A stretch of DNA of 64,000 nt from the NCBI GenBank assembly GCA_023265135.1, contig JAHFUM010000001.1:251632-315631 (forward strand), given 5' to 3'. Under the pieces are notes generated by a model. It did no database searches, was not told where the DNA came from, and saw only the letters and a list, made by a program, of their open reading frames with translations. Positions 13,137-26,023 of this stretch are shown piece after piece; position 1 is the stretch's first letter, and every line of letters begins with the position of its first letter. The DNA is from Nitrosarchaeum sp. Lineage in GTDB: Archaea > Thermoproteota > Nitrososphaeria > Nitrososphaerales > Nitrosopumilaceae. A program made the position numbers and the translations under genes.

Positions 13137-13180
13137 AGTATCTAGACAGATATTTAGGCCTGTTAAATTCTTACTTGTTT

Positions 13181-13255
13181 GGACTCGTTGCACAGTCTGG
13201 ATAGTGCGAGCGGCTTCGAACCGCTAGGTCGAGGGATCGAAGCCCTCCGAGCCCT
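13181..13255 (+). tRNA. tRNA-Arg(TCG), with two unusual positions
   Basis: Cloverleaf: acceptor GGACTCG/CGAGCCC, D-arm GCAC/GTGC, anticodon stem AGCGG/CCGCT with loop CTTCGAA (anticodon TCG), variable loop AGGTC, T-arm GAGGG/CCCTC with loop ATCGAAG, discriminator T. It should decode CGA and perhaps other CGN codons. Two deviations: base pair 3-70 is A-C, and position 54 of the T-loop is A where T is nearly invariant. It lies between divergent protein genes whose longest frames run into it. Confidence 0.88.
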
Positions 13256-13298
13256 CTTAGATTATTTTATTAATCAAGCAATTCCTTTACTAGATGAA

Positions 13299-13790
13299 TT
13301 GAAGATTTCTCTATTCAAAATAGGTTTGTTGCTAAGCGCAATTGGAATGATTTGGATATCTCTTGTTTTCCTCCAAGGAGACAGAATATCTGAAGAAATT
13401 GCGTTAAAATCAGATAGTTCGTATAATGTAGAGATGATCTTTAAAGGAAAAGGTATTGGATACTACAAAGTATTCATACCAGAATTTAGCCGTAATCATG
13501 TGTTTGTTCAGATTTTAGATAATAATCAAAATGTAATATCTGAGGAAAACATTCAAACAAAGTTGTCTGTTGGTTATTTTGATTTTGATAAAAGCGGAAC
13601 ATATTATGTAAAGATAACAAATCCTACTGAAAATCAAATAAATCTGCAAGTAGAGCTTGGTGATGCAAATTCTATTACCATGATACCTCCAGGTGTGATG
13701 ATATTGGTGGGTGCAGTAATGATTATTGTATCAGCGTACTTTAAATTAAAAAATTACAGGATAGAGCAGCCAGAAGCAAATATCTTGTAG
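13299..13790 (+). CDS. membrane protein with two transmembrane helices and an external beta domain
   Basis: About 163 residues from a TTG at 13299 (residues M-K-I-S-L-F-K-I-G-L-L-L). A first helix at about 5-25 is followed by a beta-rich domain of roughly 105 residues with alternating strands (F-V-Q-I-L-D-N-N-Q, T-Y-Y-V-K-I-T-N-P), a second helix near 133-153 and a short cytoplasmic tail. The frame is open back to 13179, but that would read through tRNA-Arg. The 3' end overlaps the convergent gene by 37 bp. The fold suggests an extracytoplasmic binding or assembly role; family unknown. Confidence 0.65.
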   Translation: MKISLFKIGLLLSAIGMIWISLVFLQGDRISEEIALKSDSSYNVEMIFKGKGIGYYKVFIPEFSRNHVFVQILDNNQNVISEENIQTKLSVGYFDFDKSGTYYVKITNPTENQINLQVELGDANSITMIPPGVMILVGAVMIIVSAYFKLKNYRIEQPEANIL

Positions 13791-15378: not shown

Positions 15379-16017
15379 TTATTTTCTAAATTCAACGTTT
15401 GGTGCATCAGATTGACTTTGTATTGCAATCAGTCCACCTTCACGTAATTGTTGTAATAATTGCATTACTTCTTTTTCTACTTGATTTCTTTGCAGTCCTG
15501 TTTGTTGTGCAAACATTTCTACTAGTTCAGTTACTTTGCGTTGCCCATTGCAAGATTTCCAAAAGTCTACAATTGCTTGATTTACCATAAATCCCTGCTC
15601 ATGTTCATTAGCTAGTACCATAGAGCCATCTTCTTGTTGGACTAGTTTTCCAACTCCTTGTGGCAATGCAGTATCATAGTTGATTGGTGCTGGAGTCATC
15701 ATTGCCTTGCTCATATTTTTGATCTTTGCTTTTCCTTCTTCAGTCATGCTATCCATTGTCCATTTTGGTTCCCAAACAATGTCTACTTTGACGTTATTTA
15801 CTCCAGGAACTTTTTTGGCATATCTTGTTACATCTTGAATTAATGTCTCATGTAGTGGACAGCCTTGCGTGGTCATGGTCATTTTGATGTTGACATTGTT
15901 GTTTTCTATCACATCAATTCCATAGATTAATCCCATCTCAACAATGTTTAGTGGAACTTCAGGATCCATGCATTGTTTTAGAGAATCTTTTATGGCTTGT
16001 GCAGTGACAGTGCTCAT
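15379..16017 (-). CDS. MIP18/DUF59 iron-sulfur assembly domain fused to a PqqD-like domain
   Basis: 212 residues. Residues 1-90 form a MIP18/DUF59 domain with D-P-E (18-20), E-M-G-L-I-Y (27-32) and T-T-Q-G-C-P (49-54, Cys53), as in SufT and CIA2-type Fe-S assembly factors. Residues 115-200 resemble PqqD/RRE-type wing domains: V-L-A-N-E-H-E-Q-G-F, I-V-D-F-W-K-S-C-N-G-Q-R-K-V-T-E-L-V and L-L-Q-Q-L-R-E-G-G-L-I. The join uses a Met/Pro-rich linker (91-114). The N-terminal half is a firm call; the second half is inferred from spacing and residue pattern. Confidence 0.8.
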   Translation of the reverse strand: MSTVTAQAIKDSLKQCMDPEVPLNIVEMGLIYGIDVIENNNVNIKMTMTTQGCPLHETLIQDVTRYAKKVPGVNNVKVDIVWEPKWTMDSMTEEGKAKIKNMSKAMMTPAPINYDTALPQGVGKLVQQEDGSMVLANEHEQGFMVNQAIVDFWKSCNGQRKVTELVEMFAQQTGLQRNQVEKEVMQLLQQLREGGLIAIQSQSDAPNVEFRK

Positions 16018-16056
16018 ATTGTTAAATGCAGTTTTAAAATCAATAAAAACTTTCTA

Positions 16057-17112
16057 CTAATTAGCTTCAAATAATTTTTTGATAGACTCTTCATATGGTG
16101 GTTTAGCCACACCTTTCTCAGTAATTATTCCTGAGATTAGCTCAGGCGGAGTCATATCAAATGCCGGATTTATAACATTGATATCATCTGGAGCCGTTTT
16201 TCTATCACCAATTCCAGTCACTTCTGTTCCCTTTCGCATCTCAATGACTACATCCTGGGCATCACTTTTCATATCAAAAGTCGATAGTGGTGCTGCAACA
16301 TAAAATGGAATTCCATGCTGCTTTGCCATAGTTGCTACTTGGTATGTTCCAATTTTATTAAAGACATGACCGGTTCTTACAATTCTGTCAGCTCCAACTA
16401 TAACTTTGTCTACCAGTCCGTTTGCCATGGAATATCCTACGGCAGTATCTGGAATCAGACTGACATCAAATCCATCATGTTTTAATTCAAATGCAGTTAA
16501 CCTGGAGCCTTGTTGTACTGGTCTTGTCTCAGTGGCTATTACTTTGATGTTTTTTCCACTCTCTCTTGTTGCTCTAATTACACCTAGTGCTGTTCCATAT
16601 GCTACTGTAGCTAGTGCACCTGCATTGCAATGAGTCATTATTGTATCATTGTTATCAAATAGAACGGAACCAAATTTTCCCATTGTTTTATTAATTTGAA
16701 TATCTTCTTCTGCCATTTTTTTGGCTTCATTAATTATGGATTGTTTAATTTGCTCAACTGTAGTTGCAAAGTTTGCAACTGTCATGATTTTATCCAGTCC
16801 CCATTTGAGATTTACAGCAGTGGGTCTTGTTTCATAAAGAATTTTTCTTGCCTTTTCTAGATCTGATATTAGTTGATCTTTTGTAGTTGCCTTGCTTTGC
16901 AATACAGCCAGAGCCAAACCAAAAGCGCCAGATACGCCAATTGCAGGTGCACCTCTTACAACCAGAGTTCTTATGGCATCTGCTACTTGGTTATAGTCAT
17001 CATATGTTACAAACACTAGTTGATTTGGTAATTTGGTCTGATCAATCATGATTACTTTGTTATCTTTCCATTCTACAGTTCTCAAAGAGGAGTCAATCAT
17101 AACATCGTCCAT
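16057..17112 (-). CDS. mtnA: methylthioribose-1-phosphate isomerase (aIF2B-like family)
   Basis: 351 residues from an ATG at 17112. R-G-A-P-A-I-G-V-S-G-A-F-G (53-65), the catalytic Cys162 in M-T-H-C-N-A-G-A-L-A-T and Asp242 in V-G-A-D-R-I-V are the marks of MtnA, which converts methylthioribose-1-phosphate to methylthioribulose-1-phosphate in methionine salvage. Archaeal homologues can instead act on ribose 1,5-bisphosphate. The frame is open a further 23 codons upstream, but a TATA box at 17132-17141 sits about 25 bp before this ATG, so the longer version would begin upstream of the promoter. Confidence 0.88.
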   Translation of the reverse strand: MDDVMIDSSLRTVEWKDNKVIMIDQTKLPNQLVFVTYDDYNQVADAIRTLVVRGAPAIGVSGAFGLALAVLQSKATTKDQLISDLEKARKILYETRPTAVNLKWGLDKIMTVANFATTVEQIKQSIINEAKKMAEEDIQINKTMGKFGSVLFDNNDTIMTHCNAGALATVAYGTALGVIRATRESGKNIKVIATETRPVQQGSRLTAFELKHDGFDVSLIPDTAVGYSMANGLVDKVIVGADRIVRTGHVFNKIGTYQVATMAKQHGIPFYVAAPLSTFDMKSDAQDVVIEMRKGTEVTGIGDRKTAPDDINVINPAFDMTPPELISGIITEKGVAKPPYEESIKKLFEAN

Positions 17113-17131
17113 GAATATCTCAAAAGTAGGC

Positions 17132-17141
17132 TTTTTAAAAA
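17132..17141 (-). promoter_or_regulatory. TATA box of mtnA
   Basis: On the minus strand a TTTTTAAAAAG tract is centred about 25 bp before the ATG at 17112. It fixes the start codon of mtnA and implies a transcript with almost no leader. Confidence 0.6.
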
Positions 17142-17200
17142 TCAATTGGAGGAATATGGCTTGACAAATAATTCTTATCAATCAAAAATGGCAGATAAAA

Positions 17201-18076
17201 TCAAGTGGGTTTTTTGTTCAGATATATTTCTAAAATTTTATTTGATGTATTTTTAGGAAGGATTTTGAACATAAAGTCCCGAATGATTTGTCTTGTTTTA
17301 ATTTTAAGCGGTTTTTGTTTTTTATAATTTTTAAGTGCAGTAAGATACTTGGTTTGTAAATCAGGCGATAGTTGTAAAATTATTATTGATCTTATATGAT
17401 CAATTTTCTCTAATGCATCATTATACCGTTGTTTTGTTAATTGTGATTGATGAATTCTGTATTTGGCTAAATTTTCATTTACAAAATGAAGATTGTATCC
17501 AAATAATATGCAACAACGAAGCCAAAATTCATAATCATCCTTGTATCCCAATGTTTCATTAAATAACCCGCATTTATCAAAAATAGATTTATGCATTATT
17601 GAAGTAGTTCCATTTCCATAAAAATGATCTAATAAAATTACATTTCTATTAAATGGATCAAAAGAATTGTAGTTTGGTTCAATAAATTCTCTAATATGTT
17701 TTCCATTTTGATCAATTAAATCGTAATTTGAGTAGAAGATGCAATGTTCTGATTCATTATCAAGTTTTTCAATCTCCAAAACTAGTTTTTCAACGGCATT
17801 TTCTTTTAGAACATCATCTGCACTTAACCATTTGAACCAATCACCAGTCATTATTTTTATTCCAGAGTTTAGTGCTGAAGCTGTACCACCATTTTTTTTA
17901 TTTATTATGATAATATGGTTTTTATAATTATTCAAGATTGAAAGCGATTTATCAGTTGATCCATCATTCACAGCAATAATTTCAATATTCTGATATTTTT
18001 GAGACAAAGCAGATCGGATACATTCATCAAGATATTTTTCCGCGTTATAGACTGGAATTATTATAGAAACTTTCAT
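17201..18076 (-). CDS. family 2 glycosyltransferase
   Basis: 291 residues. GT2 (GT-A fold) signature: V-S-I-I-I-P-V-Y-N-A-E-K-Y-L at the start, V-N-D-G-S-T-D (36-42), a G-G-T-A-S-A-L-N-S-G segment and the acidic L-S-A-D-D (metal/sugar-nucleotide site) near 95, with E-F-W-L-R-C near 190. No transmembrane segment is seen, so it likely acts on the cytoplasmic face. It overlaps the upstream membrane-protein gene by 4 bp and is the last gene of an apparent three-gene operon. Confidence 0.9.
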   Translation of the reverse strand: MKVSIIIPVYNAEKYLDECIRSALSQKYQNIEIIAVNDGSTDKSLSILNNYKNHIIIINKKNGGTASALNSGIKIMTGDWFKWLSADDVLKENAVEKLVLEIEKLDNESEHCIFYSNYDLIDQNGKHIREFIEPNYNSFDPFNRNVILLDHFYGNGTTSIMHKSIFDKCGLFNETLGYKDDYEFWLRCCILFGYNLHFVNENLAKYRIHQSQLTKQRYNDALEKIDHIRSIIILQLSPDLQTKYLTALKNYKKQKPLKIKTRQIIRDFMFKILPKNTSNKILEIYLNKKPT

Positions 18077-18552
18077 ACTCTATCGAATTTTTTTGGCATT
18101 TCTAAAGTTCCCCCAGTAGACAATAATTTAAGTTTCTGAACAAGATCATCTAATCTCTCGGATTGTTGTTCAGTAATACCTTCATTAGAAAGGGACATTC
18201 TTCCTAGTACCAATAATTCACGAAATAATGGAGCCATTACTTCTTTCTGTATTCCAGGCAGAAGATAATAATTGTAGGGCCAAGATTCTTGAAGTACATC
18301 TTGTTGTGATTTGTATATTTGCGAACGACGCATGTGCACAAATCCTATGAATATCAAAAGTGGTACACCGACAATTAATGATACTACCACATATGTGGAA
18401 AAACTCGTAAATATTTTATCGCCGAGTTCATTTTGAGCGATGACCAAGTAGTATGTGGTTGTAAGCATGTTTAGCAATGCTAGAGTGAATGTAAAATATT
18501 GTGAGTAACCAGTTTGAAAATAAAACCACGAACGAAAATAAATTTTTTTCAT
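18073..18552 (-). CDS. membrane protein of a tandem paralogue pair (second copy)
   Basis: 159 residues with two transmembrane helices (about 15-38 and 52-75) and a C-terminal cytoplasmic half. It shares with the next gene upstream the opening F-R/F-x-x-G-Y-x-x-Y, N-M-L-T-T-T-Y-Y-L (N-V-L-T-T-T-Y-F-L in the other), a G-V-P/G-M-P turn, and a P-Y-N-Y ... P-G-I ... E-V segment. This shows old gene duplication. It overlaps its neighbours on both sides by 4 bp (ATGA type), so the two membrane proteins and the glycosyltransferase are translated as a unit. No known family was recognised. Confidence 0.75.
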   Translation of the reverse strand: MKKIYFRSWFYFQTGYSQYFTFTLALLNMLTTTYYLVIAQNELGDKIFTSFSTYVVVSLIVGVPLLIFIGFVHMRRSQIYKSQQDVLQESWPYNYYLLPGIQKEVMAPLFRELLVLGRMSLSNEGITEQQSERLDDLVQKLKLLSTGGTLEMPKKFDRV

Positions 18553-19034
18553 TTCAAAACTCCCTTTGGAGGATTACCCACAAATCCTCCTTCAATTAAT
18601 TCAGAAAATTTCTTTTCCAGGGACAGTATATTTGCAAGTTCTTCCTTTGTCAATTTTTCGCCTTTGATTCGTTTAATGTTTAGCTGTAATATCGTAAGAT
18701 AAGCTTGGCCGAAAACTTCTCTGTTAATTCCTGGTGTGAATTTATAATTATATGGAGAATATTGTTGTGAAATAGCAACTTCTTGAGTATATGTACCGAT
18801 TCTCTTGAAATGTAACCATCCAGTCAGAATGACTATAGGCATGCCTACTCCTATACAAAATAAAACATAGCTTTCAAAATTAGGAAAAACCTGTTGAATC
18901 AGAGGAATTTTTTTTCCTGCAAGAAAATACGTTGTAGTTAAAACGTTGATTAATCCAATAAACATAGCAAGATAAGTTCCATAACCTATTCGAAAATAAT
19001 AGAATAGACGAAATCCTTTTGTTTTTTTAGTCAT
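18549..19034 (-). CDS. membrane protein of a tandem paralogue pair (first copy)
   Basis: 161 residues, two transmembrane helices (about 18-40 and 53-76) and a soluble tail containing S-P-Y-N-Y-K-F-T-P-G-I-N-R-E-V-F and a Lys/Glu-rich helix ending G-N-P-P-K-G. It is paralogous to the following gene (shared N-V-L-T-T-T-Y and P-Y-N-Y ... P-G-I motifs). It opens the operon leading to the GT2 gene. Its job may be to recruit or couple the glycosyltransferase at the membrane, which is inference from context only. Confidence 0.75.
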   Translation of the reverse strand: MTKKTKGFRLFYYFRIGYGTYLAMFIGLINVLTTTYFLAGKKIPLIQQVFPNFESYVLFCIGVGMPIVILTGWLHFKRIGTYTQEVAISQQYSPYNYKFTPGINREVFGQAYLTILQLNIKRIKGEKLTKEELANILSLEKKFSELIEGGFVGNPPKGVLK

Positions 19035-19341
19035 TGATTATTCCTGTCCAATTTCGTCTAATAATATCTTTGAGACTATCTACTAGTTTTTCTTAACAAT
19101 TCTATGAAATTGTATTATTAATTTCTATTAAGAGATGAAGTTAGAAGGATAGTCTAGTAATTGATACTATATTGTTGTATGTTATCCTTTGATAGAAATT
19201 TTAAATGACTTTTTCAAAAATATTTTAGATTAATATATTGCAAATAGAAAAATAAGTTCCCAGAAATTTTGGTTAATGTTTACAAATTTAATATTCTGAT
19301 ACAAATAAGATTTGGAAAAATAAATCCACAATAAACAATAT
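19035..19341. other. intergenic stretch, very AT-rich
   Basis: About 300 bp between two leftward-read glycan genes. No frame longer than about 20 codons with a start, no tRNA-like folding and no clear long repeat was seen on either strand. The part just above 19034 must hold the promoter of the membrane-protein pair, and the part next to 19342 the 3' end of the glycosyltransferase transcript; neither has a signal that can be pinned down. Confidence 0.5.
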
Positions 19342-20223
19342 TTAAGACTTGTAATCTTGACTTATTTTAATTACAATCTCTTTCCATTTATTTATTGTAT
19401 CTTTTAAATCAAATCCTGCTGCAAAAACTTCAGAACGGGGATCCTTGTTTTCTGGATACCAATCTTCAAAATAACCAATATCATGTGTGACATCTACTTT
19501 TGTTCCACACAACATTGCTTCAATTGCAGGTAATCCAATACTTCCTCTTGCAAAAAATAAATCCGAAGCGTTATATAATTTTCTTAGCATATTATGATCT
19601 ATATTGCAGAATTTTCGGATATTTTTTCCTTCTATAGAAAACGGATTATTTTTAGATACAAGAATCCAATCAATATTATTATTTTCTTCAATCTTTAGTT
19701 TTACTTGATCCCATCCGTGAATCAATGTCTCGTCACCAACAAATATGATACATTGACCAGTAATTCCTAATTCTTTTCTTGTTTGATTTCTTTCATCAAG
19801 AGATGGATAAAAAATGGAGCTGTCTATACCCATTGGGATCCAACAACCTTTTTCTTTTGGAATGTCATATAATCTAAGTAAGCTATTGACATTTACTACA
19901 ACAAAGTCAGCTACATTTACTGCAGTCGTAATTTTCTGAATTTGTTTATTGCAAGCTGTCTTATCAAGAAGATCATATTTCATCAGTGCATGATAATTAT
20001 CTTGAATTAGCATAATTATTGGTTTTTTTGGTATTTTTAGATCACCCCAGAAAGCATTCTGAATAATTACATCAGGGTTAAATTTAACAAGGTGTCTTCG
20101 CCAAAACCATTTTTTAGTACTAATAAAGTTAGCATCTAAAGTATCTTCAAGAAAATGCCAAAATGTTCGAGTTCCAGGTATTCTTGTTTTGATGTCATTT
20201 ATCAAAGCGATTTTTTGAGTCAT
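19342..20223 (-). CDS. glycosyltransferase (GT-B type)
   Basis: 293 residues. A GT-B layout is seen: N-terminal part with I-M-L-I-Q-D-N-Y-H-A, a middle linker G-C-W-I-P-M-G-I-D-S-S-I-F-Y-P, and a C-terminal nucleotide-sugar domain with I-I-F-V-G-D-E, L-R-K-L-Y-N-A-S-D-L-F-F-A-R-G-S and L-P-A-I-E-A-M-L-C-G-T (the E-A-M-x-C-G motif of GT4-like enzymes). It is shorter than typical GT4 enzymes. The open frame starts 11 codons earlier, but that ATG overlaps a TATA box at 20246-20253; the ATG at 20223, 26 bp downstream, is the likely start. Confidence 0.8.
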   Translation of the reverse strand: MTQKIALINDIKTRIPGTRTFWHFLEDTLDANFISTKKWFWRRHLVKFNPDVIIQNAFWGDLKIPKKPIIMLIQDNYHALMKYDLLDKTACNKQIQKITTAVNVADFVVVNVNSLLRLYDIPKEKGCWIPMGIDSSIFYPSLDERNQTRKELGITGQCIIFVGDETLIHGWDQVKLKIEENNNIDWILVSKNNPFSIEGKNIRKFCNIDHNMLRKLYNASDLFFARGSIGLPAIEAMLCGTKVDVTHDIGYFEDWYPENKDPRSEVFAAGFDLKDTINKWKEIVIKISQDYKS

Positions 20224-20245
20224 GAATATTTCTCCATATTTCTCT

Positions 20246-20253
20246 AATTTATA
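20246..20253 (-). promoter_or_regulatory. TATA box for the glycosyltransferase gene at 20223
   Basis: The minus strand reads TATAAATT, centred about 26 bp before the ATG at 20223, and it overlaps the upstream candidate ATG at 20256. It therefore selects the internal start. Confidence 0.65.
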
Positions 20254-20321
20254 CATCCAACATGATTTGAAAAATTATATTAATAATTTAAGAAACTTGT
20301 ATAAGAAACTAAAAGATAGGA

Positions 20322-21068
20322 TTAAGATTTTTTAAAGAAATACCCAACTGAAGGTCTTTTAAACATAGTATCAGTTGAACGTTCAATTTCTTCAAACTCA
20401 ACTAAATTTTCAATCTCTTCATTATGTAATTTGATAAATTCTTGAAAGGCATTGCTATGATTAATGTCATCAGAACCTAAGATTCCACTTTTTTTAAGAT
20501 GTTTCCATGCAATAGAGTATTCATACATCATAGTTTCATAGGAGTGTTCAGAATCGTGAATGAACATATCAATTTGATTTAATTTTTTTAAAACTGGTTC
20601 TAGTTTTTCTTTAGTATCGCCTATAGTTAAAGTCCAATTTTCTTTTAATATATCAGATACAAGATAGCCAACACCACCATAATTTTTCACATTTTCAGAA
20701 TCATTCAAATCAAATGAATAAAGATGACCAATATTATTCCTGGAGATGGCAGATAAAATCATGAACGAAGACCATCCCATGCTAGTTCCTGTTTCTACAA
20801 TAATTTTGGGTTTATTTTTTCTAACCAGACAATACCATGCTACAGGATATTTTGTTATTCCTATTTGTCTACTTATTGTTTCAATAATATCTGAAATTGA
20901 ATGATTTTGTTGCAGTAATTTATCTGATATGTTACATGCGTCAGACATTTTTTTTCTATACTCTTTAATTTGAACAGTTTTTCTAACTTCATTTTTATTA
21001 CCAGTAAGAATAAACTTGAAGATAGCATCAGGATTATGCAATACACGTTTTATTTGCCGAAGTTTCAT
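20322..21068 (-). CDS. class I SAM-dependent methyltransferase (Methyltransf_24 type)
   Basis: 248 residues. The SAM-binding motif reads I-I-V-E-T-G-T-S-M-G-W-S-S (about 90-102), then L-Y-S-F-D-L-N-D, T-L-T-I-G-D-T and D-M-F-I-H-D-S-E-H-S-Y-E with the paired acidic/His residues of the Methyltransf_24/CmcI group, which use a metal for O-methylation. It overlaps the upstream double-GT2 gene by 4 bp. In this setting it probably methylates a sugar or a glycan precursor. Confidence 0.85.
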   Translation of the reverse strand: MKLRQIKRVLHNPDAIFKFILTGNKNEVRKTVQIKEYRKKMSDACNISDKLLQQNHSISDIIETISRQIGITKYPVAWYCLVRKNKPKIIVETGTSMGWSSFMILSAISRNNIGHLYSFDLNDSENVKNYGGVGYLVSDILKENWTLTIGDTKEKLEPVLKKLNQIDMFIHDSEHSYETMMYEYSIAWKHLKKSGILGSDDINHSNAFQEFIKLHNEEIENLVEFEEIERSTDTMFKRPSVGYFFKKS

Positions 21069-22594
21069 GAATCCATTTCTCCCTCTTGAACATGATAAAT
21101 TAAACTATCAAAAACAGTATAATGTTTAATTCCAACAGGAAAAAGTTTTTCATAAAACAAAATTTTGTCACCAGGTGTAATGGTTCCATTTTTTTCTGTA
21201 CGATTTCCAATTGGGTATCCTCCACTTTTGACAAAAGAATCTTTGTATACAGCACAAGGCATGAACAAACCACCTTCCTTTATTTCTGGTTTTGAAACTT
21301 GATTTACAAAATTTTGAAATAATTCGTCATCAAATTCAGAATACGTTTGACCAAAATTTTTTTCTATTCCATATTTTCCAGATCTGAGTTTTCCAGATTC
21401 AACTAATCTGCAAGTTACAATTCTGTCTTCACGAAGGTTTTTCAGCAAATTTTCTAACCAATTTTTGGAAAACGCCATGTCTGAATTGACAAAAACTATA
21501 ATGTCAGCATCAGCCTCAAAACCACCAAAATTCCAGGCTCTATAGACACGATTCAGATAATATTCGTCAGCGTCTTCATTTAGGAATAATTTATGTGGTA
21601 GATTATTTTCTTTAAGATAATTCAACAAATTTTCAGTGGGATCATTTGCAATAAAATGAAAATCAATACTATTTAATTTTGGATTGGCGTATTTTTTAAA
21701 AGATTCATAAACAAAATTTGCGTATCCCGTAGATTTGTAAATTAAACATATGACGGATACTTTCATAGAAGATATTGGAATCCAATCTCTAGAGAATTTT
21801 TTTAATTTTAAAGTACTATCATCTACTAGACGGTCTAGACTACGTCCAGTTTGACCATGTTTTTTATAAGTTTCATATTTTTCAATTATTTTCTCTGTTG
21901 ATGAAAAACCATAATGAAGTGTTTTGATATTTGTACGTCTGTCATTTTTTAATCCTAATGGATGTTGTCGCAGATGCAAGCCATCTTGGATATCAAATTT
22001 TAGTTTCCCTGTATTTTTCCAAAGTTTAGGTTTCCAGAGTTTATGCCATAATTCATCAACACGATAATGTGCATTACCGTTCCAAAGATTATAATACAAA
22101 AATGAAAAAGAATCAATGTTATTTTTATCTCCATAATTACATAAACTTCTGATTCCTCCCAATTCCCCAATTCTATCAAAAGTTTCATCTGCATCTAACC
22201 AAACTATCCAATCTGGATCAAGTGAGAGTGCAAATTCTAATAATTTTTGTTTATGAGATATTTCTCGTTGAAAATCAGTATCTAGTTGAATGATGTTTTT
22301 GGTGTACTTTTTTGCAATTTCAGTACTGTTATCTGTAGAACCATCATCACATAATGCAAGATCATCACAAAAAACAGACAGATGTTTAAGACATCTTTCT
22401 AAATTTCCATTTGTACCTTCATTAAAATATTTTACAAAACCTACTATTTTGAGAGGCTTGATGTTTTCTTCAGATGATAAAGATTCAATATTGATACGCC
22501 AAAGATCTTTGTAAAGACCTAATCCTTGTTTTGCAATTTTCTTTAAACCCACAAATATTATTTTTTTATGTTCTAAATTTATCTTCCTAATCAA
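21065..22594 (-). CDS. bifunctional glycosyltransferase with two GT2 domains
   Basis: About 509 residues. The first GT2 domain (roughly 45-275) has V-G-F-V-K-Y-F-N-E, C-D-D-G-S-T-D-N-S and V-W-L-D-A-D-E. The second (roughly 278-500) has V-S-V-I-C-L-I-Y-K-S, F-I-A-N-D-P-T, I-V-F-V-N-S-D-M-A-F and a late G-D-K-I-L-F. Both keep a DxD-like acidic site. The start is uncertain: a TTG at 22636 would overlap the divergent gene by 10 bp; the TTG at 22594 is used here; a GTG at 22552 lies about 26 bp after an AAATTTA tract and is also possible. Confidence 0.8.
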   Translation of the reverse strand: MIRKINLEHKKIIFVGLKKIAKQGLGLYKDLWRINIESLSSEENIKPLKIVGFVKYFNEGTNGNLERCLKHLSVFCDDLALCDDGSTDNSTEIAKKYTKNIIQLDTDFQREISHKQKLLEFALSLDPDWIVWLDADETFDRIGELGGIRSLCNYGDKNNIDSFSFLYYNLWNGNAHYRVDELWHKLWKPKLWKNTGKLKFDIQDGLHLRQHPLGLKNDRRTNIKTLHYGFSSTEKIIEKYETYKKHGQTGRSLDRLVDDSTLKLKKFSRDWIPISSMKVSVICLIYKSTGYANFVYESFKKYANPKLNSIDFHFIANDPTENLLNYLKENNLPHKLFLNEDADEYYLNRVYRAWNFGGFEADADIIVFVNSDMAFSKNWLENLLKNLREDRIVTCRLVESGKLRSGKYGIEKNFGQTYSEFDDELFQNFVNQVSKPEIKEGGLFMPCAVYKDSFVKSGGYPIGNRTEKNGTITPGDKILFYEKLFPVGIKHYTVFDSLIYHVQEGEMDS

Positions 22595-22626
22595 AAAATA
22601 TATGGATATCTTCCATACATCGTTCG

Positions 22627-23820
22627 TTGAAAGCAAAATACCTTATTGTTCTTGGTATAAGACCAGACATTATTAATTATCAACCACTAGTAAATGAGTT
22701 TAAACGCAAGAAGATAGATTTTTCAATTGTACATACGGGGCAACATTATTCGTATTTCTTTGATGGGTTATTTTTCAAGCAGTTAAATTTTCCAAAACCC
22801 GATTATCATTTAAAAATTGGTTCAGGTACGCAGGCACATCAGCTTGGAAAATTAGTTCAAAAATTTGAAAAGGTTCTATTAAAAGAAAAACCAGATCTTG
22901 TATTTTCATTTTCTGATGCAAATCCAGCACTGTCAGGAATTGTTGCATCAAAAATGGGAATTAAAGTTGCTCATCTTGAAGCAGGAATGAGAAGCTATGA
23001 TTGGAGAATGCAAGAAGAGAAAAATAGAAGATTATTAGATAGTATTTCAGATTATCTTTTCACTCCAACTTCATCTACACACAAAAATCTAATTGATGAG
23101 GGTATATCACCTCATAGAATATTCAAAGTTGGAAAACCAATATTTGAAGTACTAGAAAATTTTAAAGAGCAAATTGATAAAAATTCAGTTTTAGATAAAT
23201 TGCAAATTTCCAAAAAGAATTATTTTCTTGTTACTGCACATAGACAAGAAAATGTAGGAGTAAAAAAGCCACTAGGAAATATTTTAAAGGCAGTAGAAGA
23301 AATTTATAAAAAATATGAAAAAATAATAATTTTCCCAATACACCCTAGAACTAGAGCATCTATCAAAAAATTTGGTCTAAAGGTTCCAAAAGGAATAAAA
23401 TTATTGGATCCCATAGGATTTTTGGAATTTTCAAAACTTGAAAAAAATGCATTCTGTTGTATTACAGATTCTGGAACTGTTCAAGAAGATGCGTGTATTT
23501 TTCATGTTCCATGTGTAACTATGAGAATAAGTACAGAACGTTCAGAAACAATAGAGGTGGGGTCCAGCATTGCAGCAGGCGTAAATAAAATTCACATTAT
23601 AGATGCTGTAGATAAAATGGTGAATAGAAGTCCAAATTGGAAGAATCCTTACGGAAAGCCAGATTTTTCAAAAAAAATGGGTAAAATTCTTGAAAAACTT
23701 GATGATGAAATTTGCTCACCAAAAGTTTGGTGGGATCATCCAAAAATTAGTTCAAGTAAATCAATTAGCGAGTATAAAAGAAAATGGAAAAACCCGTTAA
23801 TACCGGATGAAATTTTTTAG
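22627..23820 (+). CDS. wecB: UDP-N-acetylglucosamine 2-epimerase family
   Basis: 397 residues from a TTG, with a TATA-like AAAAAATATATGG about 25 bp upstream. Family marks: G-I-R-P-D (residues 10-14), H-T-G-Q-H-Y (36-41), H-L-E-A-G-M-R-S-Y-D (115-124), V-T-A-H-R-Q-E-N-V (catalytic His region), F-P-I-H-P-R-T and I-T-D-S-G-T-V-Q-E-D. It would turn UDP-GlcNAc into UDP-ManNAc, a precursor for surface glycan. It heads a rightward run of four nucleotide-sugar genes. Confidence 0.9.
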   Translation: MKAKYLIVLGIRPDIINYQPLVNEFKRKKIDFSIVHTGQHYSYFFDGLFFKQLNFPKPDYHLKIGSGTQAHQLGKLVQKFEKVLLKEKPDLVFSFSDANPALSGIVASKMGIKVAHLEAGMRSYDWRMQEEKNRRLLDSISDYLFTPTSSTHKNLIDEGISPHRIFKVGKPIFEVLENFKEQIDKNSVLDKLQISKKNYFLVTAHRQENVGVKKPLGNILKAVEEIYKKYEKIIIFPIHPRTRASIKKFGLKVPKGIKLLDPIGFLEFSKLEKNAFCCITDSGTVQEDACIFHVPCVTMRISTERSETIEVGSSIAAGVNKIHIIDAVDKMVNRSPNWKNPYGKPDFSKKMGKILEKLDDEICSPKVWWDHPKISSSKSISEYKRKWKNPLIPDEIF

Positions 23821-23844
23821 TTAGAGTTAATTACTGAATAATTT

Positions 23845-24306
23845 TTGAGATATTTAAAATTGATACAAGGATTACAGTGCAATAAAGTTGAATCATTTAT
23901 TGATGATAGAGGATTTCTCTCACAAATATTGCCTGAAGGGGATGAATCATTTAACATCAAGCGAATTTACTCAACTGGAAATTTTTCCAAAGGAACAATC
24001 AGAGGATTTCATAAACACTCAAGGGAAAAAAAGGCATTTTTTGTAACTTCAGGTGTAGCAAAATTTGTTGTAGTAGATGATAGAAAAGAAAGTCCCACAT
24101 ACAAGCAAATCAATACTTTTGTTTTATCACAACTCAATCCATCAGTTTTAGTCGTTCCAACTGGAATTTACACAGGATGGATGTCTTTGGATGACAAAAC
24201 AGTGATCATTGGAATATCAACTGAATCATTTGACAAAAATAATCCAGACGATGAAAGATTGGATCCATTTACATACGGAGATGTCTGGGAGATCAAAAAT
24301 AGATGA
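23845..24306 (+). CDS. sugar 3,5-epimerase-like cupin (RmlC/WxcM-like)
   Basis: 153 residues from a TTG. Cupin fold with D-D-R-G-F-L-S-Q (about 21-28), G-T-I-R-G-F-H-K-H-S-R-E (50-61, His base) and V-P-T-G-I-Y-T-G-W-M (107-116), the pattern of dTDP-4-keto-sugar 3,5-epimerases and related isomerases. It acts on a nucleotide-linked 4-keto sugar. It overlaps the next gene by 4 bp and lies 24 bp after wecB. Confidence 0.82.
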   Translation: MRYLKLIQGLQCNKVESFIDDRGFLSQILPEGDESFNIKRIYSTGNFSKGTIRGFHKHSREKKAFFVTSGVAKFVVVDDRKESPTYKQINTFVLSQLNPSVLVVPTGIYTGWMSLDDKTVIIGISTESFDKNNPDDERLDPFTYGDVWEIKNR

Positions 24307-25295
24307 AGGTTCTACTTACAGGAGGTTCAGGATATCTAGGTTCTATACTTTCAAGGAAATTAATTGCAAAAGGACATAATGTTAGGATACTAGATAATTT
24401 TCTTTTTGGCGATAACTCAATTAAAGATATAAAAAATAACAAAAAAGTTGAGATTGTAGAAGGTGACATACGTGATCTGTCAGTTGTTGGAAAATCACTA
24501 AAAAACATAGACTCTGTAATTCACTTGGCTTCAATTGTTGGAACCCAATCAGCAGAATTGGATCCAAAAACGTCAATAGAGATCAATTTTATGGCAACAA
24601 GAAATATTGCTGAATTATGTAAAATATACAAAATCAAACAATTCATTTTTGCAAGTACTTGCTCAGTTTATGGTGCTCAACCTGATCAATTGATTGCTGA
24701 AAATTCTGAAGTCAATCCATTGGATTCGTATGGTCAATCAAAATTTCAGTCCGAACGTGCTATTTTACAAGCTTATGATTATCCTACAATTCTTCGATTA
24801 GGTACCTTGTTTGGTGCATCATATAGGATGCGATTTGATCTTGCAATTAATTTATTCATCGCACAGGCAATGAATAAAGAAAAAATTACAGTTTTTGGTG
24901 GTGACCAATGGAGACCGTTTTTGCACGTAGATGATGCAGCAGAGGCATTTAGTTTTGCACTAGAAAATAAAATGGAGGGAATCTATAACGTGATTTGGAA
25001 AAATCTCACAATCAGTCAAATGGCAAAGGATGTCAAAAAACTAATTCCAACTCAGATTGACATATCAAAAGATATTGTAGATAAAAGAGATTACAGAGTT
25101 ACAGGTGCAAAATTAGAAAAGTTTGGATTCAAGGCAGAAAAAGACATTCCATATGCAGTAAAAGAATTTAAAGAAAAAATACAAGATGATGTTAAAAACT
25201 ATACTGAGGAAAAATATAGCAACTACAAATCATTTTTCAATTCAAAATCACTTCAGCATAAAGTTTACACTCAGGGACCGATATTCAAACAATAG
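24303..25295 (+). CDS. NAD-dependent nucleotide-sugar epimerase/dehydratase
   Basis: 330 residues. Extended SDR: T-G-G-S-G-Y-L-G-S (6-14), D-N-F-L-F-G-D, V-E-G-D-I-R-D, H-L-A-S-I-V-G, the active-site S-T-C-S-V-Y-G and Y-G-Q-S-K (Tyr/Lys catalytic pair near 145-149), and R-P-F-L-H-V-D-D. The enzyme could be a 4-epimerase, 4,6-dehydratase or reductase on a nucleotide sugar. It is two bases from the next SDR gene and overlaps the preceding cupin gene, so co-transcription is likely. Confidence 0.88.
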   Translation: MKVLLTGGSGYLGSILSRKLIAKGHNVRILDNFLFGDNSIKDIKNNKKVEIVEGDIRDLSVVGKSLKNIDSVIHLASIVGTQSAELDPKTSIEINFMATRNIAELCKIYKIKQFIFASTCSVYGAQPDQLIAENSEVNPLDSYGQSKFQSERAILQAYDYPTILRLGTLFGASYRMRFDLAINLFIAQAMNKEKITVFGGDQWRPFLHVDDAAEAFSFALENKMEGIYNVIWKNLTISQMAKDVKKLIPTQIDISKDIVDKRDYRVTGAKLEKFGFKAEKDIPYAVKEFKEKIQDDVKNYTEEKYSNYKSFFNSKSLQHKVYTQGPIFKQ

Positions 25296-25297
25296 AC

Positions 25298-26023
25298 ATG
25301 ACAGTATTCATAACAGGCGGTGCAGGGGCATTAGGTACAGAACTAAAAAAGAAATATCCAAATGCATTAGCTCCAACCCATGAAGAATTAGATTTAGGAA
25401 ATAGAGAAGACGTGTTTAGATTTTTTAAAAACCATCCCGATATTGATGTGATTATTCATGCAGGTGCACTCACCGGAATTAGACCGTGTGAAGAAAATCA
25501 ACCTCTTGCATGGAAGACAAATGTGGAAGGTACTAGAAATCTTGTAGATGCTATTCTTGAATCAAAAAAGAAAATTCAATTCATCTATGTCAGTACTGCA
25601 TGTGTTTTTGATGGACATAGTGAAATGTATAAAGAAAGTTCCATTCCTTATCCTGAAAATTTCTATGCACTAACAAAATTAATTGGAGAAAGTGAAGTAC
25701 GAAAATTATCCGAGTTTCTTATTGCAAGAACTAACTTTGTAGCAAAAAAAAAATTCCCATATCCAAAAGCATTCACAGATAGGTATGGAACTTATCTATT
25801 TGCAGACGGTGTAGCTCAAGGAATACAAGATGTACAAAAAGAAAAACTTACAGGGATTGTACATATAGTTGGAGATGAGAAAATTTCAATTTATGAACTA
25901 GCAAAAATGACTACTCCTGATGTGCAACCCATGACAATAAAAGACTATTCGGGTCCAAAACTTACTATGGATATGAGTTTGGATACGGAAAGATGGAAAA
26001 AATACAAGATATCAAAAGACTAG
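25298..26023 (+). CDS. RmlD-like nucleotide-sugar reductase
   Basis: 241 residues. I-T-G-G-A-G-A-L-G-T (5-14), L-D-L-G-N-R-E-D-V, I-I-H-A-G-A-L-T (50-57), V-S-T-A-C-V-F-D-G and Y-A-L-T-K-L-I-G-E (Tyr/Lys pair) fit RmlD (dTDP-4-dehydrorhamnose reductase) and close relatives. With the cupin epimerase and epimerase/dehydratase it forms a set able to make a deoxy or rearranged sugar donor. Its stop codon abuts the stop of the convergent glycosyltransferase. Confidence 0.85.
   Translation: MTVFITGGAGALGTELKKKYPNALAPTHEELDLGNREDVFRFFKNHPDIDVIIHAGALTGIRPCEENQPLAWKTNVEGTRNLVDAILESKKKIQFIYVSTACVFDGHSEMYKESSIPYPENFYALTKLIGESEVRKLSEFLIARTNFVAKKKFPYPKAFTDRYGTYLFADGVAQGIQDVQKEKLTGIVHIVGDEKISIYELAKMTTPDVQPMTIKDYSGPKLTMDMSLDTERWKKYKISKD

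Follow-up and report, generated by a model that had tools for sequence, protein, structure and literature searches.

Genes of the locus

The stretch of DNA analysed (64,000 nucleotides of a Nitrosarchaeum sp. contig, JAHFUM010000001.1, positions 251,632 to 315,631; hereafter the window) carries two adjacent genes for small membrane proteins, termed A and B, followed on the same strand by the gene of a GT2 glycosyltransferase. These genes and their neighbours are:

Protein A: 18549..19034, minus strand; 161 aa, two-span membrane protein, gene 1 of the pair
Protein B: 18073..18552, minus strand; 159 aa, two-span membrane protein, paralogue of A
GT2 glycosyltransferase: 17201..18076, minus strand; 291 aa (PF00535, E=2.6e-36)
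Upstream co-directional gene: 19342..20256, minus strand; 304 aa, resembling GT group 1 or pyruvyl-transferase proteins by weak matches that all lie under the Pfam cut-off
Methyltransferase (Methyltransf_24) of the glycan island: 20322..21068, minus strand (PF13578, E=3.6e-18)
Second GT2-type glycosyltransferase of the glycan island: 21065..22636, minus strand (PF00535, E=2.8e-15)
UDP-GlcNAc 2-epimerase-type gene of the glycan island: 22627..23820, plus strand (PF02350, E=8.5e-93)
eIF2B-like gene at the island edge: 16057–17181, minus strand (Pfam scan and locus comparison)
FeS-assembly/PqqD protein at the island edge: 15379–16017, minus strand (Pfam scan and locus comparison)

The earlier note on this DNA had described A and B as adjacent two-span proteins with common motifs that overlap each other and the GT2 gene by 4 bp each, and this description is borne out. 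The overlaps lie at 18549–18552 (A/B) and 18073–18076 (B/GT2), the motifs N-V-L-T-T-T-Y or N-M-L-T-T-T-Y, P-Y-N-Y and P-G-I are found in both proteins, and both the model of A and the composition of 42 family members show the two-span topology. A Kyte-Doolittle hydropathy count predicts no membrane spans in the GT2 itself.

The pair is situated in a variable glycan island with recurring edges (window 15379–26023; loci L033–L087). The eIF2B-like and FeS-assembly genes form one edge, and relatives of both also flank several other loci of the family; on the opposite side there is in many genomes a radical SAM gene, whose scanned representative carries an HMPTM zinc ribbon. Between these edges the glycan islands of these archaea differ from genome to genome, as judged by locus comparison. 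Elsewhere in the window, an open reading frame called from a TTG at 13179 (13179–13790) overlaps a tRNA-Arg gene (13181–13256), and its true start is probably downstream of that TTG.

A and B as two-span membrane proteins

The alignment of A and B spans 150 residues, is free of gaps and shows 33% identity (E=3e-30), a similarity far above chance that, at the level of sequence, marks them as paralogues. Relative to the copies in genome G141, dN/dS is 0.11 for A and 0.11 for B, and both genes are therefore constrained. When the genome of the window was searched with A, the only matches were A and B.

An AF2 model of A, built from the alignment of 42 family members (A1), has a mean pLDDT of 85 and a pTM of 0.52. 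Two long helices joined by a short loop are followed in it by further helices (residues 4–42, 44–49, 53–78, 81–92, 94–98, 102–124 and 130–147). A model of B made from its single sequence was poor (mean pLDDT 54) and was given no weight. The 42 members have a Lys/Arg-rich N-terminal end, two nearly uncharged hydrophobic spans and a charged C-terminal part: the mean number of Lys and Arg residues is 4.1 in the N-terminal 20 positions, 0.3 and 0 in the two spans, 0.9 in the loop between them and 13 in the C-terminal part. The loop is 10–13 residues long according to the model of A and the alignment. The positive-inside rule assigns Lys/Arg-rich ends to the cytoplasm, and given this distribution both ends of the proteins are predicted to be cytoplasmic. 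Residues Y13, Y21, N30, L38, F50, F53, P66, G72 and H75 are invariant in A1.

Comparison with sequence and structure databases

Scans of A and B against Pfam and NCBIfam were empty even at E up to 1. The best match of the family profile to PDB sequences has an E-value of only 0.27. With the model of A, Foldseek returned a best E of 4.3 and nothing under 0.001, and the best VIA-align hit has a Z of 5.2 over 78 residues at 10.8 Å. One of the 42 members matches an unnamed PHROGs family (E=5.8e-4). Among the Pfam matches listed for the 42 members, weak ones to STIV_turret_2nd (best 4.3e-4) and to DoxX (best 0.0039) were each found in five members. One of the 42 matches Wzz (PF02706) at E=1.2e-4, with nothing for the other members at E up to 1; a re-scan of ten members for Wzz at E up to 0.01 was empty, as were the scans of A and B. 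These sporadic STIV_turret_2nd, DoxX and Wzz matches are taken as chance or composition.

Identity with a known family was thus unconvincing in every comparison made (Pfam, NCBIfam, PHROGs, PDB sequences, Foldseek and VIA-align), and the remark in the earlier note that no family was known for the pair stood up in Pfam, NCBIfam, the PDB sequences and Foldseek. None of the matched frames from 250 Nitrosopumilaceae genomes and 398 genomes of the phylum showed the family domain fused to a glycosyltransferase. A paper describing the setting of the family was absent from the best literature matches listed, a weak absence given that few subscription journals were covered.

Distribution, clades and tandem runs

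The A1 profile detected the family in 96 of the 250 Nitrosopumilaceae genomes, and in 55 of the 131 that are near-complete. With a wider profile (A2), matches extended to other families of the order and outside it, 57 of 398 sampled genomes of the phylum being positive. Genomes G332 and G367 hold a very distant tandem pair, for which a profile comparison with the family (probability 97.6, E=2.9e-12) supports homology; a query with one member of this pair gave matches in 7 of the 229 genomes searched in its class.

Two trees were computed. The first (83 rows) omitted the two split-frame pieces of L082, the doubtful L087 and the most distant rows (two from L128 and one from L130); the second (113 rows) included later loci, with the L082 pieces again dropped and L087 under the score cut. 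In the first tree, seven A proteins formed one clade and seven B proteins another, each with support of 100/100; in the second there were eight of each, with support of 100/100 for A and 95/93 for B. The two sets come from the same eight genomes (the window, G141, G009, G025, G079, G150, G006 and G192), and among the 113 placed members neither A nor B ever occurs alone. On these trees A and B parted long ago. The earlier note had proposed an old duplication with both copies kept, and the age of the clades and their constant pairing support an old divergence in which both copies stayed. The nearest kin of B in the larger tree, however, are single members from G098, G144 and G044 (99/85), so that A and B are not necessarily simple tandem duplicates of each other.

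Tandem arrangement is recurrent in the family. Seventeen co-directional runs were found: the eight AB pairs, six pairs of a short type and three young duplications (G019, G222 and G153). The very distant pair of G332 and G367 is a further case, the two genes again overlapping by 4 bp (L128:7474–8600, minus strand; L130:7080–8206, plus strand) with no adjoining glycosyltransferase. The short type constitutes a second, independent old tandem pair (L078, L084, L156, L167, L170 and L184), the first and second genes of which fall in separate clades; in L156, L167, L170 and L184 the next gene after the pair carries a nucleotidyltransferase-type label. In G085 (L082:9833–10290) a family gene near a contig end is split over two overlapping frames beside an intact GT2, and is either a broken copy or the result of a sequencing error.

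Glycan genes around the family

The surroundings of all places found with the A1 profile were examined, with the exception of G120, G133, contig 168 of G100 and contig 20 of G021, and compared with 20 control stretches taken at round coordinates in 11 of the genomes. Glycan labels came from profile models of gene clusters of the same loci, each named by one Pfam-scanned representative, or from the genes of the window. The label set includes Asn_synthase-type genes and some weakly based labels (c43, with no Pfam scan; c56 and c26, with matches under the cut-off). The counts ignore relatedness and the label models were built from the same loci, so the following numbers are descriptive.

A glycan-type gene lies within three genes of 110 of the 114 scored family members, versus 22 of 422 genes in the control stretches. 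When each tandem run is counted as one unit, the figure is 94 of 96, the exceptions being L077 (G023) and L177 (G153); the G006 unit is counted as positive solely through its LPG_synthase_TM gene. A glycosyltransferase is found within three genes in 68 of the 96 units and directly adjoins 51. Other genes of the same loci are themselves often near a glycan gene (1112 of 1546 within three genes), and direct adjacency is therefore set against these as well as the controls in the following values:

Direct adjacency to any glycosyltransferase: family 60/114; other genes of the same loci 326/1546; controls 4/422
Direct adjacency to a GT2: family 28/114; other genes of the same loci 112/1546; controls 2/422

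STT3-type genes occur near some family members, and N-glycans have been reported on S-layer and other proteins of Nitrososphaera viennensis (PMC12153357).

Outside the Nitrosopumilaceae, where ten neighbours at nine loci were scanned, a glycosyltransferase was found at four of the nine (L118, L122, L127 and L135). A sulfotransferase gene lies beside L129, and the distant pair of G332 (L128) lies beside genes for a class I tRNA synthetase and a carbamoyltransferase. The single neighbour scanned at each of L123, L134 and L137 had no Pfam match. In G367 the distant pair is flanked by PurE-like and endonuclease V-like genes, read by eye.

A contig from IMG/VR, classed as viral, carries a sugar cassette with one family member (L247:2959–7437; a 153-aa frame with 40% identity in the best segment). 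The order is an Asn_synthase-type gene, a GT group 1-type gene, the family member, a weakly matched methyltransferase, a 181-aa gene and an epimerase; the cassette adjoins a long repetitive protein of 869 aa with no Pfam match. This contig is an independent instance of the family in the company of glycan genes.

Linkage to one GT2 type and exchange of the GT2

The GT2 gene follows B directly in six of the eight AB loci, with an overlap of 4 bp in five and of 1 bp in G025. The earlier note had taken the pair to be coupled to this enzyme and had proposed checking whether the linkage is constant. The coupling holds for these six loci and fails in G006 and G192, where no GT2 comes after B. In G192 the pair is on a small contig with STT3-, PglD- and DegT-type genes. 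The pair of G006 has as neighbours genes of phosphoglucomutase/phosphomannomutase, radical SAM, UbiA and LPG_synthase_TM types and no glycosyltransferase, and beyond these are genes resembling (by eye) translation factors and ribosomal proteins. The occurrence of the pair away from glycan genes, named in the earlier note as a finding that would count against it, is thus partly seen: the G006 pair has no glycosyltransferase nearby, and none adjoins the distant pairs of G332 and G367.

When the 250 genomes were searched with the GT2 of the window (E up to 1e-60, the query locus being among the matches), its type was found in 16 genomes at 54–100% identity, followed by ten places at 40–43%. A family member accompanies this GT2 type in 15 of the 16 genomes, adjacent in 12 and with one gene between in three (G144, G164 and G215). 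The sixteenth is the draft genome G245, in which no family member was found and only about 0.6 kb of contig lies upstream of the GT2. In contrast, none of the ten places with relatives at 40–43% has a family member within up to 1.5 kb on each side, three of these stretches being shortened by contig ends. These unlinked relatives likewise have no membrane spans by hydropathy count, and therefore a span-free GT2 does not need a family partner. They are mostly found in a common setting of their own (L224–L233), flanked on either side by genes of about 335 aa, one of which (in L225) resembles a phosphosugar isomerase by eye.

The partner of the linked GT2 is an AB pair in six genomes and a single member in nine, and it may be in either orientation. 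In the tree, which leaves out the split copy of G085, most of the single partners are near kin of A and B; G148 and G215 have partners of the distant short type. For the 22 cases of GT2 adjacency, the family gene is upstream in the same direction in 11, the two genes have opposite directions in 10 and the GT2 is upstream in one.

The GT2 of L083 represents a second type. A search with it at E up to 1e-45 (the query locus holds a family member and is among the matches) found a family member adjoining in five of the six genomes that have this type at 63% identity or more. The remaining genome, G218, has no family matches at all. Relatives of this second type at 40–42% have a family member in three of seven places, within the stretch covered.

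We also looked for a segment of the GT2 that separates the linked type from its relatives and might serve for docking. An alignment of the 16 linked sequences with nine of the ten relatives contained none that clearly discriminates.

The kinships of the membrane proteins and of the GT2 differ. A and B of the window are closest to those of G141 (82% and 78% identity), whereas the GT2 of the window is 57% identical to the GT2 of G141 and 66% identical to that of G025. The trees agree, with A and B grouping with G141 and the GT2 with G025 at 100/100. In G079, similarly, the GT2 next to the AB pair forms a group (100/99) with the GT2 of G144, where the family member is single. These differing kinships show that GT2 genes have been exchanged or replaced between such loci with a family member kept nearby. 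Such exchange with adjacency retained favours a working partnership over simple co-inheritance, although co-inheritance probably plays a part as well: most partners of the linked GT2 come from a single family branch, made up of AB and its near kin, and the linkage may partly reflect this.

A possible role for A and B

The observations of the earlier note are confirmed and its interpretation is partly supported; from the gene context, a scaffold role in glycan assembly is plausible, while for the carrier role that the note also named this context speaks neither way. The reading that we prefer, while placing it a little short of an even chance, is that A and B serve as membrane subunits with no catalytic role, tethering or regulating exchangeable glycosyltransferases in a way similar to DPM3 or PgaD. 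In such a module for surface glycans, each protein would cross the membrane twice, leaving the N-terminal end and the helical C-terminal part in the cytoplasm. A and B together, probably as a heteromer, would bind the product of the overlapping third gene, the span-free GT2, hold and perhaps activate it, and position it beside its putative lipid-linked acceptor. The GT2 could be replaced by another with the membrane partner retained, and in other genomes a single family member would take this role next to a glycosyltransferase of GT2 or another type. Against this stand the AB loci of G006 and G192 with no GT2, the variable orientation of the genes, the presence of the second GT2 type in G218, a genome with no family match, and the distant pairs of G332 and G367 with no glycosyltransferase. 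Part of the adjacency could also stem from a shared position at the edge of a variable island.

That last point leads to a rival reading, which we regard as rather improbable, in which A and B are passengers of a variable surface-glycan island with no contact to the glycosyltransferases, and the linkage arises from island turnover, co-inheritance and a conserved edge. The patchy presence of the family, the shared edge genes at many loci, the abundance of glycan genes around other genes of the same loci and the origin of most partners of the linked GT2 in one branch would all be expected of passengers. Island membership alone does not readily yield the excess of direct GT and GT2 adjacency over those same neighbouring genes, the contrast between 15 of 16 genomes for the linked GT2 type and 0 of 10 places for its relatives, or the swapping of the GT2 with adjacency retained. 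Somewhat less probable still, and in our view unlikely, is that A and B handle the lipid carrier, with two-span oligomers binding or flipping polyprenyl-phosphate-linked sugars and the link to glycosyltransferases arising through the common lipid. Conserved R9, R15, Y21, N30, P66, G72 and H75 in or near the spans amount to more polar conservation than a plain anchor requires, and the G006 pair lies near a UbiA-type prenyltransferase gene and an LPG_synthase_TM gene with no glycosyltransferase; the LPG_synthase_TM type is a predicted flippase in archaeal glycosylation (PMC5898192). Two spans joined by a loop of 10–13 residues are, however, small for a transporter, there is no significant fold or sequence match, and a common lipid leaves unexplained why one GT2 type keeps the family adjoining when its nearest relatives do not.

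We give very little credence to the possibility that the proteins are regulators of chain length or polymerisation, as reduced Wzz-type polysaccharide co-polymerases. A two-span layout close to polysaccharide genes and the single Pfam match to Wzz would suit such a role, but no second member of the 42 matches at E up to 1, the ten-member re-scan was empty, the outer loop has just 10–13 residues and the additional part of the protein is on the predicted cytoplasmic side. A Wzz-like regulator was set aside as the main reading on account of the short loop and the single weak match.

A broader form of the adaptor reading extends it to the phylum: a two-span adaptor family whose recurrent tandem pairs act as two-subunit platforms recruiting interchangeable glycosyltransferases, with the platform inherited, the enzymes swapped and the adaptor also present in the sugar cassette of the contig classed as viral. 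We consider this doubtful. If true, it would give these archaea a modular way to alter their surface glycans.

For the question of how span-free glycosyltransferases reach membrane-bound substrates in the glycan islands of these archaea, a family linked to these enzymes and unmatched in Pfam and NCBIfam provides defined genes to study. The adaptor reading, if true, would explain how enzymes are exchanged with no rebuilding of the machinery.

Comparison with known systems

Wzz proteins have a large extracytoplasmic domain between their two spans. The A/B family is like them in having two membrane spans and a polysaccharide gene context, and differs in having no large inter-span domain, the model of A and the alignment leaving room for 10–13 residues.

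The type of argument used here, from gene neighbourhood to membrane families of glycosylation, was also that of Makarova, Galperin and Koonin (2015, PMC5898192), whose families include arCOG03206, an uncharacterised archaeal membrane family tied to glycosylation genes with two paralogues in one operon. The families compared are different ones, the flippase-like arCOG00899 and the Wzy-like arCOG03206, and the main text of that paper contains neither the word 'Thaumarchaeota' nor the words 'two transmembrane'.

PgaC has membrane spans of its own, unlike the GT2 of the window, for which the hydropathy count gives none. The likeness to this system is that of a small membrane protein encoded alongside a GT2: PgaD is a small integral membrane protein encoded with the GT2 PgaC, whose activity depends on it (PMC8461298). 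The PgaD model (PF13994) matches one of the 42 members at E=0.063, which is not significant, and matches neither A nor B of the window.

In the DPM system, DPM3 anchors DPM1, which is degraded in its absence, and DPM2 binds DPM3 (PMC7728079). Here too small hydrophobic membrane subunits serve a span-free catalytic subunit, and DPM2 and DPM3 would parallel A and B. No DPM family is among the best 25 of the 39 Pfam families matched by the 42 members, and A and B have none at E up to 1. The two systems also differ in that A and B are paralogues of each other, lie in archaeal glycan islands and have no Pfam match. With a sequence match absent, A and B are filed as members of neither DPM3 nor PgaD. 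The resemblance is one of plan: two spans, a cytosolic helical part and a tie to a span-free GT2 are features that A and B have in common with the DPM3/DPM2 arrangement. If the adaptor reading is true, A and B would represent the counterpart of DPM3 and PgaD in archaea.
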